Shown piece after piece: positions 44,101-56,100 of a DNA stretch of 64,000 nt. Both the position numbers and the translations under genes were made by a program. Each line of letters opens with the position of its first letter. The first letter of the stretch is position 1. Source of the stretch: Clytia hemisphaerica. Lineage: Eukaryota; Cnidaria; Hydrozoa; Leptothecata; Clytiidae. The notes below the pieces were generated by a model. It was not told the origin of the DNA and did no database searches. It saw nothing but the letters and a program-made list of their open reading frames with translations. The stretch covers positions 221,060 through 285,059 of the forward strand of contig CACVBU010001392.1 of the NCBI GenBank assembly GCA_902728285.1, given 5' to 3'.

Positions 44101-47100
44101 CTAATTTCAACATCCTTCTTTAAAGATAGGAATAATTGGAAGGTCAGAATCGCTGATGGAAACTATTTTTCTTTGCTTAGCGATCAGAGAAGAAAATACC
44201 TTTTGTCTATATAAGTGATCCCAACCTTCCTATTATTCCTATCTCTAAAGAAGGGTGTCGGAATTAGAAGAGGGATGTCGACATTAGACCAACTTAAGGT
44301 ACTAGAACCTATCAATATCCAGTCAATTGATTTGTTATCGATGTGTCATCGATAGAAAATAAATCAATTGTTTTGAGTGGGAGTCTGGCACTGTATAAAA
44401 AAGTTTGTCTTTGAGTTATATATCTGATCAATCAAAACTCAAATCCATTGTATATACAATATTCAATCAAAGTTGATACAGATTTTACAGTGAGATTTTG
44501 ATATAGACTTCAACAACAGTCTTGCCGTTTTCCCTCGCATCCATTTGGGTTGACCGGGTGAAGGCTCGTACACTTTCCAAGTGAACCGCTCATCATACTT
44601 CAGGATGCATCGTCTCTTATTTTCCCCCTTTTTTCTACTTTCCTATCTTCTATCCTGATTTTTTATCTTTCTCAAGTGTTTCTAACTGTTTTCTAAGTAT
44701 TTTTCTGAAATTTGCCCGTACCCGTGAAACAGGTCTCCCACCCCGGCTCGAACCACCGAATGCAAGCAACCTTGGTTTGCAATCCCAATGCTTAACCGCT
44801 TGCGCCAACGAGACACGACAGAAAGCTTTCATTCACAAATACTTATAGCGTGTAATTTACAGACCATAACTAAGAAAGCTCCCAACCCTACCGGCCATCG
44901 GTCTTATATTGTGACTCTCCAGCTCCAACCCTAACCCTAACCCTAACTGATAATAACCGAACCCCCGTCTAGGTCCGCGGATTGGAAAATTTCACTTGCA
45001 TCCTGGAGTATGATATCGTTTGCCAACCGTAGCAATCAAGGTAACTTTTTCCAATCGATGACTAATCGATAAATAATCGATGGATTGGATGATATCGTTT
45101 GATTTCAATAATTGATACATGATAGACAGAATCGATAATCAATATTTCACGGGAAGCTCGATTGGCTATCAATTGTAATTGTGATCAATTTTCCATCGAT
45201 TTATTCTTAAGATGTTCGATTGATCACAATTGACAGCCAATTGAGTCCAATCGATTAAAAAACTAATCTATTATCAGTTAGAATAGTCTCGATTATTGAA
45301 ATCAATCTAAATCCAATCAATCGGTTGGTTACCAATTAGTCATCGATTGATATTGAGGCTGGAAAATGACAATTAACACATCGCACCTAACTAACTCTAG
45401 CTAGCAAAAGGTAACTTCTCTATCACTTATAGATTGACACCCCTTGCTATAAATTCTTCTGTGAAATACTTAGTTGTTAGTAAATGATAATACTTAGTAA
45501 ATGATGATCTATCTTACAACACAACTTAATCAAATATCAACAAATAATTCTACTTGTAAAAATGAAGATCATACCTGTTCTGTGTTGGTCTGTGTTGTCT
45601 GTATTATTGTTGTTGTGTGTAGTGAAGTTCAAGAGCAACTCTAATTGTAAGATTCCTATCACTTTATTGGTGCATTACTAACTACACAAACATAAAATAC
45701 TATGCTATTGTAAAGAAATATAAACCTCTTTAAGTACTCTAAAAACATCAAAAACATGATAAAAATACAAAAATCCAGAGCAAATCTGACAGCATGATCG
45801 AATCCGCCATTTAAAAAAACTAGCAATATTTACGAATGCTTGGTTCCACCTACCTAAGCACTTGCGGAGTGGAATCATTAAATTTTATTTTAGCGAGTGA
45901 GTTCATATTTTAGAATCTTCGAGAATGTTCTAGAAGTTTCAACTACTTTCGTTTTCTAATTTTTTTTCCGCACCGCCGCCGCCGCGGATTTTTTTTCCGT
46001 CAACGAACGAAGACCTACGCTAGCGGCCGAATACCTTTAAAACTTTAATGCGTTGTTTTCCAGCGGCCGAAGACCTACGCTAACGGCCGAAGACCTACAA
46101 ATTTAATGTTAATCTCATAACCGATCACCATTGCTAAGGCATATGATGCATATCTTGCAGAATATCTTGCAGAACCATTCCCTTTAGAGCGCATGCGTGG
46201 AATGCGTGGAGCACGAAGAGCTGCTTGGAGGTTAATTTAATGTGTGATCAGTAGTTTTCACCGGCCGAAGACCTACACAAACGGCCGAAGACCTGCAAAA
46301 CTTAGAAATTTGAGAATCTAAATCTGAGCCAGCGGACGAATACCTTTCTTTGCCGCATGAAAGTTTTTCGCACCAAACTGCCATTCAAGCAATAAATTTT
46401 TAATATTTTGTGAAATAAATTCTTTTCGTGATAAGTCACATGAAAACATAATGGTACTCGGTAGCACATTTCCTACGAAATTCACCTAGAAACTGAGCAT
46501 ATGCTTGTGATGGAGTCATACCAGATTCAAATAGCTTTTTGATATAATTTTGCGTTTCCTCTGAAATCAATTTAAAGCTTAAAGCATGAAGAGAATTTAT
46601 GGGGTGATTGTGTTTATGCTCTTTATCTATGGTACGTCTAAATGGAGTTGGTTGTTCATTAGAATCACTTTTAAGTATCTTAACCGACATCTGAAAGGGA
46701 CAAAAAGTATTCCTGAATCTTTTGGTTGGTTTCTTCTCCAATATTGACTTGACATCTTTTGTCTTTTCGTACCTTGTGTCGTGGTAGCATCTATAAAACA
46801 CTCGCTCCGAGTAGATACTCTTCTCAGTGTTCTTTTTTCGGGTCCTAATTTTCAAGGTTTCACCCGTGTATTTTGAGTAGGTTTCAATAAAATTTTTGAG
46901 ATCTGTACTGCTTTCAGTACATTTATCACATTTTATCTCAATATCAGTTTCATGATTTTCATCACAAGAAAATGTAACAATTTCGTACTTTGATTCGATT
47001 TCCTCAAAATCATCAGCAATCAAATCCATCTCCATGTTTACAAGAGTACCATTATGTTTTCACACATTAAATTTGTAGGTCTTCGGCCGTTAGCGTAGGT

Positions 47101-50100
47101 CTTCGGCCGCTGGAAAACCACGCATTAAAGTTTTAAAGGTATTCGGCCGCTAGCGTAGGTCTTCGTTCGTTGACGGAAAAAAAATCCGCGCCGCCGCCGC
47201 GAAAGACGATCGTAATACTTTCGCTATGCGAAATTAATAAACTTAAATTTTGAGGGGTCATTTGTCAAATTTGGCCAACTAGATAAAAAGGTATGGCCTA
47301 AATGCTAAAACATTACTTTTTGAAAAAGTTTATAAAAGGCGAAAAACGAAGGTATTAAATCATCATAAAAAAAGCACGACACTGTAGTTACAACAGTTTA
47401 AACACGCCTTGCAATCGTAAGTTAAATATATTTTTTCTCAACAGTATTTTGAATGGAGTATACACTACATCTTTTCTCATTTTTTCGATTTTTTCAGTGA
47501 TTCAGATTGCGATCAAAAGATGTCACAGTGACGGATGTGATACCAGAATTCGTCAAGTGAAAGCTGTAGGATACAGGTTGGGATAATCTACTCTACTTAA
47601 AGTTGTTAATACAATCAATTCTGTCTAATTTCAACCTCTACTTTTCGAATCTTTCTATAATTCGAACTAAGTAGTAAGTAAGTAAGTAAGTTTGCGACCG
47701 CAGTCGAGGGCGACCCGAAGGCTCCTTTTTCGTATAGCTGTCTACCCGAAGGTAGGGGAGGGCCCCACTTCTTTCCCTGGATTTCTTCACTTACCCTTGA
47801 TCCGTCTCTTTAGTTGCTGAGCATCAAGCAGAGAGACATCAAGTACCATTTTGGGATTCTTTTTATGACCCGGCTGGGGATCGAACCCACAACCTTGCGC
47901 ACCGTAGCTGGATGCTCTACCTTCATGCTACGGTCACTTCGAATTAAATTCGAACTAAAATATTTGTCCCCTTAGCTAGAAATTAGCATGAAATAATTTC
48001 TGTAATTGGAATCTTTCTCTAGTTCAAGGAAAATTCTCGGTCCCTTAAAGATCGAATTAGAGAGAGTTACCTGTATGTCCAAGTCAAATAAAAGCTTGGA
48101 AAGCACCAAAATTTCACTGAAGATTGGTGTGGGCTTTTCGTGAAACTCAGAGTTTGAAATGAGAGTTTTTACGATTTGTATCATTTTTTACCAGCTTCAA
48201 AAAACAATATTTTGAGTTTGGGTTAAACCTAATAAAAAGACGGAAAGGAAAAATTTATTTAGCCTTACCTTAACAAAGTTTCAGTTGTTAGCCTCAAATA
48301 TTCCTTGATTTACTGAGCTAAGAGTAAACCAACAAAAATGCCACAAATGCCCCCCCCCCACCTTTTTTGACCAGGATCAATAAAGAATAGACCATCTACA
48401 AGGGAATATCCATTAAATCTGCACATTCTCCCTTCCTGTCTTTGTTTTAAAGTTCAGTGGGAACGTTGATTGACTATCGAAGAACAAATCCAGAAATTGT
48501 TTGTACCCCCTATATTGAGGAGGAGTGACGTCCAGGGTGGTCTGGATAATAAAAAATCCAGGTTGGTCAGTATTAAAAACGAGGTCGAAAATCCAGGGTG
48601 GTCCTTGTCATCATTCGATCGTAGTCGAGAATTTATATACTGATTTCATGATCTTGTATGTATCTAGGTCATAAAAGTTAAGTCTTATTCTATATTTAAC
48701 TTTGCAGAGTGGTGAAATCAAAAGGTGTGAGCATCATGGATGCGACAGCGATGTGGTATCTCTCAGTGCTGGCTTCAACAGCTCAAGCGTCTTTGCCAGT
48801 TGCTCCTCATCTACGAGATTCCATCATTCAACATACCAAGTAAGTCTCTTTAATACCGAGTTTATGTAGTATGTGTGTTGGTAAGGTTCTAAATTGACTA
48901 AATCCTGATCAAGAGAATGACGGTAAATCAGCACTTTTACCATCCTCGATTGTGCGGGTCAGAAGTGCGGGTTATTCCAAATCGCTTCAGTCACTCTACC
49001 GTCCTCAAAAGGGCAAATACATACACAAGTTAATTATTCTTATACGATGCAGTAGATGAAATAGCCTTGATATCTCTAGAATCTAAAATCAAACAACAGG
49101 AAAAACTAACTCAGCCAGCCCTAGCCATACAAAGTTTGACGTATAAAGTCTTGTTATCGTACCTCGAGTTTTGATTTCATTTATACCTTTGTATAACTTT
49201 TGATTCTTTGCCTATAACGTCGGAAATAGGTGAAAACAGATGATCTTTTAATTTTTTCCCAATCTTATTTCCAGGATCTCGCTATCGCATATGAGTCCAC
49301 TTTCATTATCGGCTACTTCAACTGAGAAGCCTGGTTTTCTCAGTCGGAATGTCATGGAGCAAATGGAACAGTTTTTGCATACTATTATTTGGTAAGTTGC
49401 TAACACTGAGTTTTTTATAAACCCTAGAGGCAGTTTCTCTTAATTCTAGTCAACCAAAATCTTTTATCGAAGAATTTCAAATTTTAGTCGAAAAGTCAAG
49501 AATTTATGACCCTTTGAGGGAGTCAATTTTTGATTCTCGTAATTTTGGAACCCTTCACAGAGACTCTTTTAATGATTTTTGTAGCCCTTTGAGGGACTTT
49601 GAGGTGTGAACCCCCCTCCCCCGGGCGTGATATCTAGAGAGGCCTCGAAGCTATAAAGTAGACCGAGAGTAAAGTATCATTTTCGGAGTTTGGAATTTTT
49701 TATCTATTCTTAGTCTTGATGAAGGGCCTACAGGTGAAGAATTGATCGTTCTTTTGGAGTTTGCAATGGCGCGTGGTAGTCTTGGAAGCATCCTGGATGC
49801 CCTCAAACTTCTCTTAGGTAAGAAGAAAAAACATATTTTTCATTAAGAGGGATTAGAAATTTACATAAACCAGCGTTCGTGCCTCGACCCTCCACTCCTT
49901 CAATCCAATGTCTCGCTACATTTGTTAGTGAGTCGTTTGGCCATGTATGACATAAAAATTACTTTTTCCTCGATCTCCGTCGATATAACAGCGAGTATAT
50001 GTATTCGAGAAAATTCGAAGGAGGCGGTCTCTCCAAAATCGCCGTCCCTTTTGCTCGACGACGGTAAAAACACCAATATACCGTCGTCTGCTTAGGTGAG

Positions 50101-53100
50101 CAAAGGCGATAAAGAGCCGTACATCAACTATGAACTTTGCGTTTTGCGTCGACTTCACTTACCGTCGCCCTCGATATCCTCCGATACATAAACTCGCTAT
50201 AAACGGCTCAGCACAAAACGAGCAATCACCCTATGTAATTTTCCTTTCGTTCATTTTTCCAGAGAAAATCAAAGAAGATTACCCAGCGGTCAGTTTATTA
50301 CGGACGTTAACGGAAACCGAAGAAAAAGCTGTCCGAAAGCATGGTATGTGCTTGCCGTCCGAAAAATAACTCGATAATAATAATTAGATTTTTTATTTAA
50401 GTCAGCTATTCTTACATACATGAATCCGTCACGGGCAAAGACTTTCCAAAGAGGGTAACGCACTTCAACACACATCTCATGTATAAGCTATTCTTAAGCT
50501 TTAGTCTACACTTATCCATATTAAGCTTTGGTTTGGTTTTATATTAGAGTAGAGTGTTACATATACCAGACATTACTTGTGTGATTTTATCTTTGAAGGA
50601 TTGACCTAATAGAGAAACAAATAGTTACCTTACAACTGCTGACGATTTTTCGTTCGGATGTAATCTTCAGGCAATGCATTGTTTTGTCGATTTTATTTCA
50701 GAGATTGGACTGATAATTTTCGCGTCTGAAGTTTAATTAGAAGAATCCGCTATACATGTTATTCATGCATGGTTAAGTTTCGTAATTTCTGCCATTATGG
50801 AATCGAATTTGTAGAGGCGATTCCTTTCGCAAATCGAACGTTGGAAAAATGCTTGATAGATATATATATAGTCTAGAAGTATAAAACCTTCAACTTCTCA
50901 AAATGGAAACACGAAAGACAAAACCCACAAAACATATTATAATGAAATTGAAATTAGATTGAAGATTGAAATAAAATCTCCAATTTGCATTGCCTGAAAA
51001 AGTGTGCCAGTATGAAACATCGTGTAGTTAATTCTTTATTTCCCGACATTCTTAATGTATTTTTCAATTCAATTGAAGGTCAAAAACTACCAATCATGAT
51101 TCTTTCTTGTGACGGTGGAGCACGTGACTCGTCAACAAGCCCCTCAAATGTCTTATCGGATAACTGGAAAACTGACAGTAAGTAGTTAGATCCGTTTTTT
51201 TTCTTTTGTTTAATATTATTTCAATAATACAGTGGGAACTCTTCAACTTTAACCTCTACATCTCGAATATACCTCCTTAACTCGAACAAGTTTTCTCGTC
51301 CCTTCGGTTAACAATGCCTTACAACACTTACGCCACACTTCGAAATTCCCTCGAACAAATTGTTGTTCCCTGTTCCCGTATTTGAGTCATGGAGACTCCA
51401 CTATATTATTCAAAAAACTGACAAGTTGGGTGCCATCTGGATTTCCGAGCTTTAAACAAAAGAATTTGAATGCCCTCCTTTTTAGAACAGGAGGATTTTT
51501 ATGCCCTTGGTATGAGGATTTTAAGAGCAAAGATACACCAAAGTATTCATTTCTTATTTCACCAATTGCTTTCGGTTTTTTCAGATTTTTTACAACATAT
51601 ACGTCATGTACAAAAATGCATAGAGTGTATCTTTTTGAATTTCATTTAATTTTTAAACATCTAGCACTGAAGATGCTTTTAACCGAAAAATTCGAAAAAT
51701 TAAACTTTGCTCTTCCTTCCCTTTCACTTTCTGGAATGGCTGATTTGAACCGATCTTCATTTTATTCCGACTATTTCTGCCTTTAAAATTTTCACCGGAT
51801 CACTGTGACTCAGATATGAAAATATATGTTTAGTGGTGGATCTGAAGGGGTTTGAAATTTATGACGGAGAGCGTTTTTTTCGCGATACTCCTACAAAGAA
51901 ATGGAGTCTCTCATCTCCTCAGATCCGTTGCTGACATTTTAAAAGGAACGATCCCAGGAGAAGGTTTTTTCATGCATAATTATTTCTCTTCCCTTAGCTT
52001 ACTTCACAGCGACAGGAAAGACTAAATTCAACATCGCTTTTGGATTGAAATCCAACAATCTTTTGATGGTCACTCGAGTTTACATGAAGGTTAGTACTCT
52101 TCCAAGAAAAAGTTCAGTTCCTTGTTAAAGTAAGTAGCGAGTTTACGTTTCAGAGGATATCGAGGGCAACGATGAGTGAAGTCAACGCAAAATAAAGTCG
52201 ATAGTTGAAATGCGGCTCTATATCGCCGTTGCTCCCTAAACAGATGACGGTATTTTGGTGTTTTAACCGTCGTCGAGGAAAGTGGACAGCGATTTTGGTG
52301 ACATGTCAACTTTGCTTTATACAGTCTCCTTCGATTTTTCTCGAATACATAAACTCGCTTGCAAGTCTGCAACCGCAGTCGAAGGCGACCCGAAGGCTCC
52401 TCTTTCAATAGCTGTCTACCGAAAAGGATGGCAAGGGAGGGTGCTGTTCTTTCTCCTAGATTTCTCAACTTACCCTTGAACCTTCTCTTAATTGCACGAG
52501 AGACATCAAGTACCATATTTGTACTAAGTACGAAGTCTATTGTATGAACAGGCTGGGATCGATCCTTATTAAAGTAGACTTTCATTTTGGCGTAAAGAAA
52601 TAACTATCTTGTCAAATATTTAACAAGCCTTTCAAATTAAACGAAATATCTCCTCGAAGCTATCCAAGGCTAAATGCTACTAATATTACAAAGTGTTATT
52701 AGGGTTACGTCAAAGACAAGAATCCCAAAAGCTCATACCAATATTCAGTTCCAAAACAAAAATGTTATCGTCAGTTCATTCATTCAAAGACATGCTTCTG
52801 ACGTAAAATGCTAAACAGATCCAGTGAAATATTTACAATCCTATAAGTATTTAAATAATAGTCTAAAATCTATTTAAAAGTAATTATATTGTTCTTTGTC
52901 GTCAAACGAGAGTTTTTACAAGCGTCATTATGATTTGGTTGATCGCTAGTCTTAAAAGACGAAGTCTCTTTATGTATAGTCGGCTCTCTCTAATTCGAAC
53001 GTCTGTAATTCGAATTCAAGATCCTAATCCGTTCTTTAACAGAGATGAAATGAAATTGTTAGCGTAGTTGGTTATACAGTTTACAATTTCCACGAAAACT

Positions 53101-56100
53101 GTTAGAGTTTGAAAGCTCGATAGGCGACAAATGAACACTGGGATAACGCCTTGCTTTCCAACAATAATAGCAGAATAGGAGAAAGGAAACGAATAACAAC
53201 AAGGCCATCACTATGACGACAATCATGAATAAGACTTCTTGGATATAGCAGTGTTTGTAATGCCATTCATTGAAATGGCAATCTTCAGGGAAAACATCTT
53301 GCCAGTGATATTCGCCACATTTCTCTGTGTGACCGCACCAGTAACAGTTGGTTGCTTGGAGACAAGTAGTGCATGTATGGTATTTCGAGCAATGGTTGTC
53401 TCCTGATGTGTTTCTTTTGGCGGGATGATGGGCGTGCGGATGTGTATGGTGGGCGTGGTAGCGTTTTGTGGTTGGTGTTTTTGTGGTGAGAAGGCTTTCT
53501 GCTATACTGTCTATTTTAGGTTTTGGAGGTTTAATCTTCTTTGGTGTGGGTTTAGGGTGTTTTTTGTTGTTTCTTGTAATCGTAGTTTTCTTCGTGGGGA
53601 GTATAGTTCTGAGTGGATTTGTATGGTGGTGCAATGCTGCTTTTGTAGAAGTTTTCTCTGGTTGTTGTACCGGGTTTTTCACTGTCTTGTCTGTTGGAGA
53701 TGTAGGTACGAGTGAAATTGTGTGATATTCATGTTTTCCTTCCGTAGATGCTTGCGTACTCAAAGCCGGCAAGGTGGCTGTAGCGCTTTTTCTCTCACCA
53801 ATATAAGCGTTTGATATGGAGCTTATAGCAAACAAGACTAAGAGTGAGATGTTTGGGTTTCTCAGCTTCAGCATTGTTGATTGTATGACTTCAATATTCT
53901 TCCGACCTTTCCAAGATGCAGTTCCTCTACAAATGATAACTTTATCATAACATGTTACAGACTTTGGTTCCAACTGTATTTATTATTCGTCTGTCTTGAT
54001 TGATTGATTTGGTTCCTGGAAAATAAATTAAATGGACAAAAATAAAACTATGACGTCATCGAGTGATCACAATTTTCAAACTGTCAGAAGTAAATTGAAG
54101 TGGATTTTCCATGAAGAACTTTGTTGCAAAAACGTTGTGAGATTGACATTATTTTATGTCGTTTATAATCATAAACTTTACTCTTTAATAATAAATACAA
54201 TGCATTGTCTCGACCGAAATTCTAAGAATTACACATCCACTGAAAATTATAAAATCCTTCATCACGAATTTTGAGAAATTTTCGCACCAATATTTTCTAA
54301 ACTCAAAGGTTTAGAATAAAATGTCATTTTTTTTCTGACGATTAAAATTCAGTGTTTACTTAAAATCTTATCACAGATATGATATTTATTATATTATAAA
54401 GGGCTATATACACATGGCTGTGTCAACACTCGTTCCAATCGATTAGAATGATTTTAAAATCCGGATTTTTTTGGCAAGCCACCTAAAGTTTAAACTTCTC
54501 CCCATCTTTTCGATCTTGGAACTCTTTATATTGGATGCGTTACCTCGGATTAATAAAAAAGATTTGCCTGCATTTTTACCCCCCCCCCCAAAAAAAAGAC
54601 AAAATTAATGGAATGCGAGGGTCTATCAACAATATATCTTATGAACATCTGAACCTAGAAAAATGAGAACAGCTGTGACTTTATATATTGCTCTATTTCT
54701 TGACGTCATTTTATTTCTGTTTATCAAATCATTGGTTTATTTCCCTAGGGAAACAGTGAAGTTGTACAATATTCGAACCTATTTTTAAGAACAAACCATA
54801 TAAGAACATAATGTGCTAATGGAAAAATCTTAAGAACAAGTAAAGAACATTTTAAAGGATTCACAAACTCTAACATACCCAATTTCTTCGGAAGTTGCAC
54901 ACTAACAAAATGGTGAAAATAAGAAAATGGTAAGAACATGGTCAGGTTTAAAACTCAAAAAGTAAAGACTTTCAAAGGCTTCAAAAATTTTGGATGTTCT
55001 TATAAAAAACATGTGTACTCTCGGTTGATAATACCTAATCTAATGCGTTGCAATGCAGCCTATCAAAATCTAAAAAGTCATCACTGTTGATTACTTTCAA
55101 CTACCATCGAAGATCATGAATTTTTATATTCAACGATTTTCTCTAATCATGAAAAAATAATTTTTTCGTAAAGACGACTTTTTATCTACTCCCACCCAAA
55201 TTTATAAGTAACGGCGTAACTTTAAGGAAAGAAACTTTCATTCACAACTAGCCCCGAGTTCTTAACCTAAGCTCTTTTTGAAAAAAAAATGAGGTTGAAC
55301 CCTTCTGACTGGCCAAATAACAATATCATATTTTTGTTCTTCTCTCGACAGCTGTCAAAGGGCGTGAACGCACCAAAAGGTGGCATGGTTTTTATCTTCG
55401 ACTCCGAAAACATGTAAGTAAACTACTATGCAGTGGTTAAAAAATAAAAATAAATCTAAGAAAACTCACTTTCCCTCTCACTGGGGAAAACGTACTGATT
55501 TATTGGCTCGTATATTTTTGAGAACATCTCGATATGGATGATTATTCTTCCAAATTACTTCCAGTGGGGTTTTGAATTTTTGTTATTGACAACTTTAACA
55601 AATAAATTCCCAAATACTTCCCTTAATAATTTTTACCCCAACTTTTCGATAAGGTATTAACTGACCGTCTTCAACTCAGACATTTTCGTAGCCTATAGAG
55701 GTTTTTTGTTTTGTTAAATTACGTAATTACCGCCATTATGGAAGCAAACGTTCAAATCTATAGAGACGATCCCTTACGCAAATCGAGTAAACTAGACATA
55801 AAAAACTAGCACATAAAAAACTAGCTTTTTTCTTGTGAAGTAGCGTCTATTCGGTTTAGATGATTTATGAAACGTTCTTCTTCGAGGTGTTAGGGGGGGT
55901 AGAATTTGACGTCACAACTAGCTTTTGAAGCTCATTGCAGTTCACCACTGGAGCTAATAGCAGGAATGACGTCAGGCCAATTAAATAGACTCACTTTTAC
56001 ACTTTTACGCAAATCGTCTCAATGAAAGTCACTAGATTTTGTTTTTTGATAAGTTATCTTCTAATATTGTCTGTTCTCCTCCACCACTGACCACTATATA

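Follow-up and report, generated by a model that had tools for sequence, protein, structure and literature searches.

A short Mutator-like element family in Clytia hemisphaerica that carries an N-terminal transposase frame between two copies of one parental end

Results and discussion

A 64,000-nucleotide stretch of the Clytia hemisphaerica genome (contig CACVBU010001392.1 of assembly GCA_902728285.1; hereafter the window) contains a 1206-bp element at positions 45984-47189, which is flanked by an exact 9-bp target duplication and carries one open 199-codon frame. Comparison with other loci of the same genome shows how this type of element originated: the first approximately 192 transposase codons were joined once to the 5' end of the same element, copied in inverted orientation, giving a unit of about 1.2 kb. 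We consider it probable that the copies form a young, non-autonomous deletion family of a Mutator-like element (MULE), which is mobilised in trans and in which the 199-codon gene is a passenger. Among the copies compared there is no sign of selection keeping this gene.

Copies across the genome

The 417-Mb assembly, in which Wnt genes are present as expected of an animal, was searched with the DNA of the element (40 of 301 candidates were scored) and contains at least 214 pieces that match it. A 25-base sequence spanning the junction between frame and inverted arm is present at 17 places with at most 3 mismatches, against 0 places for a reversed-pattern control. The same element thus recurs in the genome, which puts the observation far beyond chance. 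An earlier reading of the window made from its letters only (the sequence-only reading) had raised the idea of a distinct multi-copy short element, and the shared junction bears this out. The 17 places consist of 14 frame-holding copies, the window's included, together with C69, C254 and C806.

Each of the 14 copies covers at least 508 of the 600 frame positions and has inverted arms. Unsplit copies measure 1179-1259 bp; in one copy (C672) an insert interrupts the element. In C352, C851 and C515 the arms have a length of 339-341 bp and an identity of 97-98.5%. One arm is shortened or more diverged in C341, C38, C735 and C882, and one arm is without its outer part in C308, C240 and C321. Exact 9-bp duplications flank nine of the 14 copies (the window copy, C352, C341, C851, C38, C515, C735, C882 and C672, in the last case around its insert). 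The duplication of C187 has one mismatch over 11 bases, and none was found where it was sought at the C308, C240, C321 and C894 short copies. The duplicated sequence GCCGCCGCC is common to the window copy and C38, yet their flanks are unrelated, and the remaining seven duplications differ in sequence. Given these separate target duplications and differing flanks, the short form itself has transposed repeatedly. The C806 locus (718000-725200) combines three family ends and truncated frames in one composite unit of 5928 bp with an exact 9-bp duplication.

A marked target preference is also apparent. All 15 tabulated target duplications of the family are GC-rich and contain 1-3 CG dinucleotides each; their mean GC content is 0.79, against 0.26-0.51 in the near flanks and 35% for the window.

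The window copy is an atypical, damaged member of the short family. Its ends, GCGGATTTTT...AAAAATCCGC, were set in register by comparison with the other copies. The 127-bp repeats and 10-bp duplication of the sequence-only reading are real but lie one base away at either end, a shift permitted by the GCC repeat at this site; the lengths are 126 and 9 bp. Likewise, its description of the terminal repeats as intact holds for the outer 126 bp (Table 1) but not for the full arms: measured against C352, 193 bp are missing from the window copy's arm upstream of the gene, and its other arm contains an additional 124-bp insert. A 30-base core of this insert has no match in the other family loci compared.

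Origin from full-length relatives

Full-length relatives whose N-terminus matches the short frame, for which the sequence-only reading had proposed a search, are present in the same genome. Elements of 6097 bp (C359), 8050 bp (C128), 8237 bp (C308) and 8026 bp (C306) have both ends and exact 9-bp duplications. A 615-codon frame of C308, the one copy tested, matches the Pfam MULE domain PF10551 (E=1.4e-7, above cut-off). An exact-match scan of nine loci for a 31-residue MULE segment found it in five (C359, C128, C308, C306 and C22) and did not find it at the C251 locus. Target duplications of 8-11 bp are a criterion for MULEs, and the duplications are exactly 9 bp in nine of the 14 short copies and in the four full-length relatives. 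Judged by its ends, the short element is a member of a MULE family, sharing terminal repeats with relatives that bear a MULE transposase.

The cargo of the short element is the N-terminal frame of these relatives. In the parental elements this frame has 299 codons in C128 and in one C306 copy and 292 codons in C308, and is broken in C359; the unbroken parental copies are 88-89% identical to the short frame. Both frames match up to ...FRRKCAT. The parent then continues with DLEFHHKKADRS, and the short frame with EYHYVFM and a stop, read from the inverted arm; in the window copy, the inner block of the left arm encodes these last codons. A Pack-MULE, which would have captured a host gene, is ruled out by the nature of this cargo.

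A 19-bp perfect inverted repeat (46441-46459 and 47044-47062), which closely flanks the frame of the window copy, is the key to the element's origin. The two ends of the full-length elements align with each other over 225 bp (182 bp in C306), compared to 339-341 bp for the short arms. Full-length ends are mostly 96-97% identical to the arms of C352 (89-90% at one C306 end), and the inner part of each short arm has its counterpart in the full-length relatives on the transposase side only. As this inner part is present at both short ends but only on that one side of the parent, both short ends come from one parental end. Its presence at both ends also rules out a simple internal deletion. Comparison of parental with short DNA reveals a 2-bp overlap (GA) at the founder join between the frame and the inverted end. 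The founder was probably made by a template switch during gap repair. Subsequently, the short form would be cut and pasted in trans by the transposase of full-length relatives, which would recognise its terminal repeats. The 199-codon gene would be carried along because it adjoins an end that the element needs.

Such an origin of the ends recalls Mu killer, a derivative of the maize MULE MuDR in which both terminal repeats come from the transposase-side end and which contains an inverted duplication (PMC3440606). It might be argued that the short element is likewise an RNA silencer: an RNA transcribed through a short copy would fold by pairing of its 339-bp arms and be processed to small RNAs, these would silence full-length elements at their ends and in the 5' region, and the protein would be irrelevant. 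We regard this as quite improbable. Both short ends do come from the transposase-side parental end, the arms of C352, C851 and C515 are nearly identical over their length, and strong RNA pairing (-623 kcal/mol, a value without a shuffled control) is predicted for the two C352 arms when they are linked directly to each other. However, the arms duplicate only the terminal repeat and upstream sequence and no transposase coding sequence: in C352 their alignment extends over 339 bp, short of the ATG at 348. Also, long inverted arms would make any element a candidate, the arms of the window copy are broken, and transcripts at odds with a simple read-through hairpin model are reported for Mu killer (PMC3440606). 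Mu killer is moreover described as a single locus with inverted transposase coding sequence (PMC3440606), whereas the present junction occurs at 17 places, with arms that end before the coding region and a coding part that is not duplicated.

Variation of the frame among copies

The sequence-only reading was right that there is one open 199-codon gene (zero internal stops in the window copy), but its suggestion that the frame is maintained is not supported by the other copies. The frame is open in only five of the 14 short copies (window, C352, C851, C515 and C672); two contain one stop (C341 and C308) and seven contain frameshifts. Frames are thus broken in nine of the 14, one of the outcomes which that reading had named beforehand as speaking against its proposal.

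Changes were counted in 16 short-type rows, being the 14 copies and two C806 fragments. Positions 112-132 of the open reading frame (ORF), an ambiguous indel region, positions after 585 and gapped codons were left out, and the C254, C91 and C680 rows were not used given their low coverage. Private changes amount to 46 nonsynonymous, 4 nonsense and 16 synonymous, against a neutral expectation of 73/5/22%. Changes common to at least two short rows amount to 11 nonsynonymous (one of them a stop) and 1 synonymous; four shared changes are found in the two C806 fragments only. Without these fragments the private counts are 45 nonsynonymous, 4 stop and 16 synonymous, and the shared counts 7 nonsynonymous and 1 synonymous. 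Neither class shows a synonymous excess.

A different pattern is obtained when the short frame is compared to the diverged C594 relative (60 synonymous and 42 nonsynonymous codon differences), by which measure the older lineage is constrained. The contrast with the changes among short copies is significant (Fisher p = 8e-7; 3e-6 without the C806 fragments) but approximate, because single changes are set against differing codons. Under an omega of 0.3, p = 4e-5 for the private and p = 0.004 for the shared counts (5e-5 and 0.04 without C806). For an omega of 0.5 the values are 0.024 and 0.034 (0.03 and 0.15 without C806), so that weak constraint on the short frame is still compatible with the data. 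Given the neutral-looking private and shared changes and the broken frames, we reject a maintained stand-alone gene. More generally, an open frame in one copy is no evidence of maintenance.

The same data bear on whether the gene could be a domesticated host gene, encoding a DNA-binding protein derived from the element. The open frame of the window copy would fit, and precedents exist in the plant FRF proteins (PMC6000157) and in animal FHY3-like genes (PMC10027918). FRF proteins in particular are MULE-derived, retain the N-terminal domain only and are suggested to compete for the sites of their full-length relatives (PMC6000157); they are, however, host genes, whereas the element studied here shows neither a Pfam FAR1 match nor visible selection. 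Against domestication stand the intact element ends and target duplication, the many similar copies with their neutral-looking changes, and the deleted upstream region of the window copy. We consider it extremely improbable.

The encoded protein and its candidate binding sites

Pfam finds no MULE or DDE domain in the 199-residue protein (one match at chance level, E=0.068), in agreement with the absence of the catalytic core noted in the sequence-only reading. Its assignment of a FAR1-type zinc domain holds for a conserved C...C...HNH pattern but not for a profile match: neither FAR1 (PF03101) nor FLYWCH matches the window protein or 14 relatives from the same genome. When the genome was searched with the FAR1 profile, 0 of 11 matches exceeded the cut-off; the best, at another locus (C207), scored 25.7 against 28.1 bits. 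The alignment of these 15 sequences includes one parental relative that is 88% identical and others that are 32-41% identical, several of which are near-duplicates of one another. C83, H142, N143 and H144 are invariant in it, C112 is nearly invariant, and F49 and Y53 are conserved as well. Three aligned members have weak matches to the AFT family (best E=0.044). AFT belongs to the same fold group as FAR1-type zinc domains. FAR1 has been described as a C2H2 class (PMC6000157), which fits the conserved pattern.

Structural comparison adds little to an assignment to the FAR1 or WRKY-GCM1-like zinc fold, for which a C-C-H-H ligand pattern is expected: the AlphaFold model is of low confidence (mean pLDDT 61), and a Foldseek search of PDB with this model yields 0 matches at E <= 0.001. 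PDB sequence searches yield a single match at E=0.55 in one case and none in another. 'FAR1-type' is, on these alignments, to be read as 'FAR1-like pattern', and the retained N-terminal part is probably DNA-binding. If translated, the product would correspond to the parent's DNA-binding region and lack a catalytic core, which could make it a competitor for terminal-repeat sites.

Candidate sites for such binding are provided by a repeated 13-bp motif. A pattern scan finds it nine times in the window copy (Table 1) and 0 times elsewhere in the window; C352 and the C308 parent each contain 12, or six per arm.

These observations raise the question whether the element acts as a repressor of the KP type known from the P element of Drosophila. 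The core-less protein would then occupy the motif sites in full-length terminal repeats and lower transposition, with selection perhaps being too recent to be seen. Structural criteria described for P-element repressors are an interrupted translation of the transposase and a kept DNA-binding region (PMC12393704). Translation is interrupted here, the frame stopping 7 codons past codon 192 of the parental frame, and the DNA-binding region is likely kept. The six motifs per arm in both C352 and the C308 parent fit this reading, as does the fact that short copies are numerous relative to the parental-type frames found. Nonetheless, the private and shared changes look neutral, nine of the 14 frames are broken, the putative DNA-binding domain is without profile support, binding to the motif is predicted only, and the window copy has lost the 193 bp just upstream of its gene. 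We therefore consider a KP-type role unlikely.

KP and related derivatives resemble the short element in several respects: both are multi-copy and non-autonomous, have terminal repeats and carry a short frame for the N-terminal region (DNA-binding in KP, probably so here) without the catalytic part, and the KP protein has 207 amino acids (PMC7776569) against 199 here. They differ in superfamily and in structure, as an inverted copy of one end here stands in place of the other rather than the middle being lost by a simple internal deletion. Repression of transposition is, for the present element, a hypothetical property.

Weighing the explanations

A young deletion family mobilised in trans, with the gene as a passenger, remains the explanation that we prefer, and several observations weigh against it. 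First, the mobilisation by full-length relatives is a step that we infer from the sequences. Second, tests of selection are weak in so young a family: the shared changes without C806 (7 nonsynonymous, 1 synonymous) reject an omega of 0.3 at p = 0.04 but do not reject 0.5. Third, the parental copies vary in a neutral-looking way too (9 nonsynonymous, 3 synonymous and 1 unclassed change), which means that the short form is not special in its pattern of decay. Fixed differences between the short and the full-length group (9 nonsynonymous, 8 synonymous) are not numerous enough to be placed. Short branches separate the short copies in the tree, the longest being that of the window copy; the most diverged short copy is thus one whose frame is still open. 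Finally, 14 short copies are found against 7 parental-type N-terminal frames at 6 loci, an excess that could reflect an advantage of the layout.

A further reading is that the short element is a self-limiting animal MULE derivative. One rearrangement would then have given both a KP-like binding protein that lacks the core and Mu killer-like inverted ends, and the element would have spread while dampening its parent via the protein, hairpin RNA or both. We think this has only a small chance of being correct.

Comparison with known systems

Each component of the layout is already known: derivatives with internal deletions, products consisting of the binder only, and inverted ends derived from one side. 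No animal MULE with this combined layout was found in the open-licence PubMed Central (PMC) literature, as covered by titles and the starts of abstracts. Tm1, a Mutator/Foldback family of root-knot nematodes, is similar in having 9-bp duplications, long inverted repeats of approximately 14-bp motifs and non-autonomous members (PMC3169594). Those members are described as being without significant coding potential (PMC3169594), whereas the transposase N-terminus is kept here. The animal MULE groups Ghost and Phantom share the MULE transposase (PMC6446971); duplications of 8-10 bp are given for Phantom and a terminal repeat of 177 bp for cnidarian Ghost (PMC6446971). The parent found here differs in having two further frames, one for an Ulp1-like protease and one of the C2H2 type.

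The value of the present family is that the way in which a binder-only transposon derivative arose can be followed directly: there is one founder junction, the parents are still present and decay is visible copy by copy. If the protein or a hairpin does act on the parent, the family would be a natural setting in which to test, for an animal MULE, the self-regulation ideas developed for the P element and maize MuDR.

Features of the window copy

Coordinates of the features of the window copy are provided in Table 1.

Table 1. Features of the short element and its flanks in the window.
Feature	Position	Strand	Remarks
Left target-site duplication GCCGCCGCC	45975-45983		Identical to 47190-47198; register from other copies
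Left terminal inverted repeat, outer block, 126 bp	45984-46109	+	1 mismatch to right arm
First of nine 13-bp motifs, C[GT][GT][CA][CG]GAA[GT]ACCT	46024-46036	+	Pattern scan; candidate protein-binding site
Further 13-bp motifs, starts	46064, 46084, 46262, 46282, 46333	+	Pattern scan
124-bp insert in left arm	46110-46233		Query 137-260, unmatched in other loci compared
Left arm inner block, inverted copy of 5' (transposase-side) end	46234-46459	+	Query 261-486, matches both arms elsewhere
199-codon ORF	46436-47035	-	MULE transposase N-terminal codons 1-192 and 7 codons from inverted arm
Founder junction of transposase frame and inverted arm, 2-bp GA overlap	46457-46460	-	Pattern at 17 genome places
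Putative zinc domain C83...C112...H142-N-H144, FAR1-like pattern	46604-46789	-	Conservation in 15 aligned sequences; no Pfam FAR1 match
19-bp remnant of right arm inner block	47044-47062	-	Just upstream of ATG; 193 bp of arm deleted beside it
Right terminal inverted repeat, outer block, 126 bp	47064-47189	-	Pairs with left outer block
Further 13-bp motifs, reading down from	47149, 47109, 47089	-	Pattern scan
Right target-site duplication GCCGCCGCC	47190-47198		Identical to 45975-45983

Other features of the full-length relatives

The full-length copy of C308 has a 411-codon protease-like frame on the strand opposite the transposase (L033:1402-2634, + strand), with weak matches to two kinds of peptidase that stay below cut-off, the viral I7 type (E=0.0073) and the Ulp1 type (E=0.029). 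Relatives of this protease with 26-32% identity are present at C928, C308:1331474, C49, C920, C839, C680 and C340. At these seven places the relatives lie approximately 5-8 kb from diverged MULE N-terminal frames, on the opposite strand, and the two-gene layout consequently looks conserved across MULE families in this genome. A 122-codon frame of the full-length elements (L033:4067-4432; the same frame is found in L031, L032 and L036) contains C2H2 zinc fingers in C308, the only copy tested, and was possibly captured or is possibly another gene of the element. At C306:213600-222400 a full-length element has its transposase end repeated about 1971 bp apart, which results in two N-terminal frames. 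C826 was considered as a second N-terminal-only family (one locus examined) and proved to be an ordinary frameshifted copy, 97% identical to C920 over 2 kb.

Elsewhere in the window

Scans of the window for tRNA genes and Rfam families found none, and a scan for viral contigs confirmed none. A 75-bp tandem repeat at 2070-2533 (6.2 copies, 98% matches) encodes an in-frame repeated peptide. The 271-codon frame at 53059-53874 has weak similarity to PSI (plexin repeat; E=0.0091, below cut-off) and is perhaps a host membrane protein. A 395-codon frame at 25756-26943 matches the reverse transcriptase domain RVT_1 (E=1.6e-11) and is a retroelement remnant.

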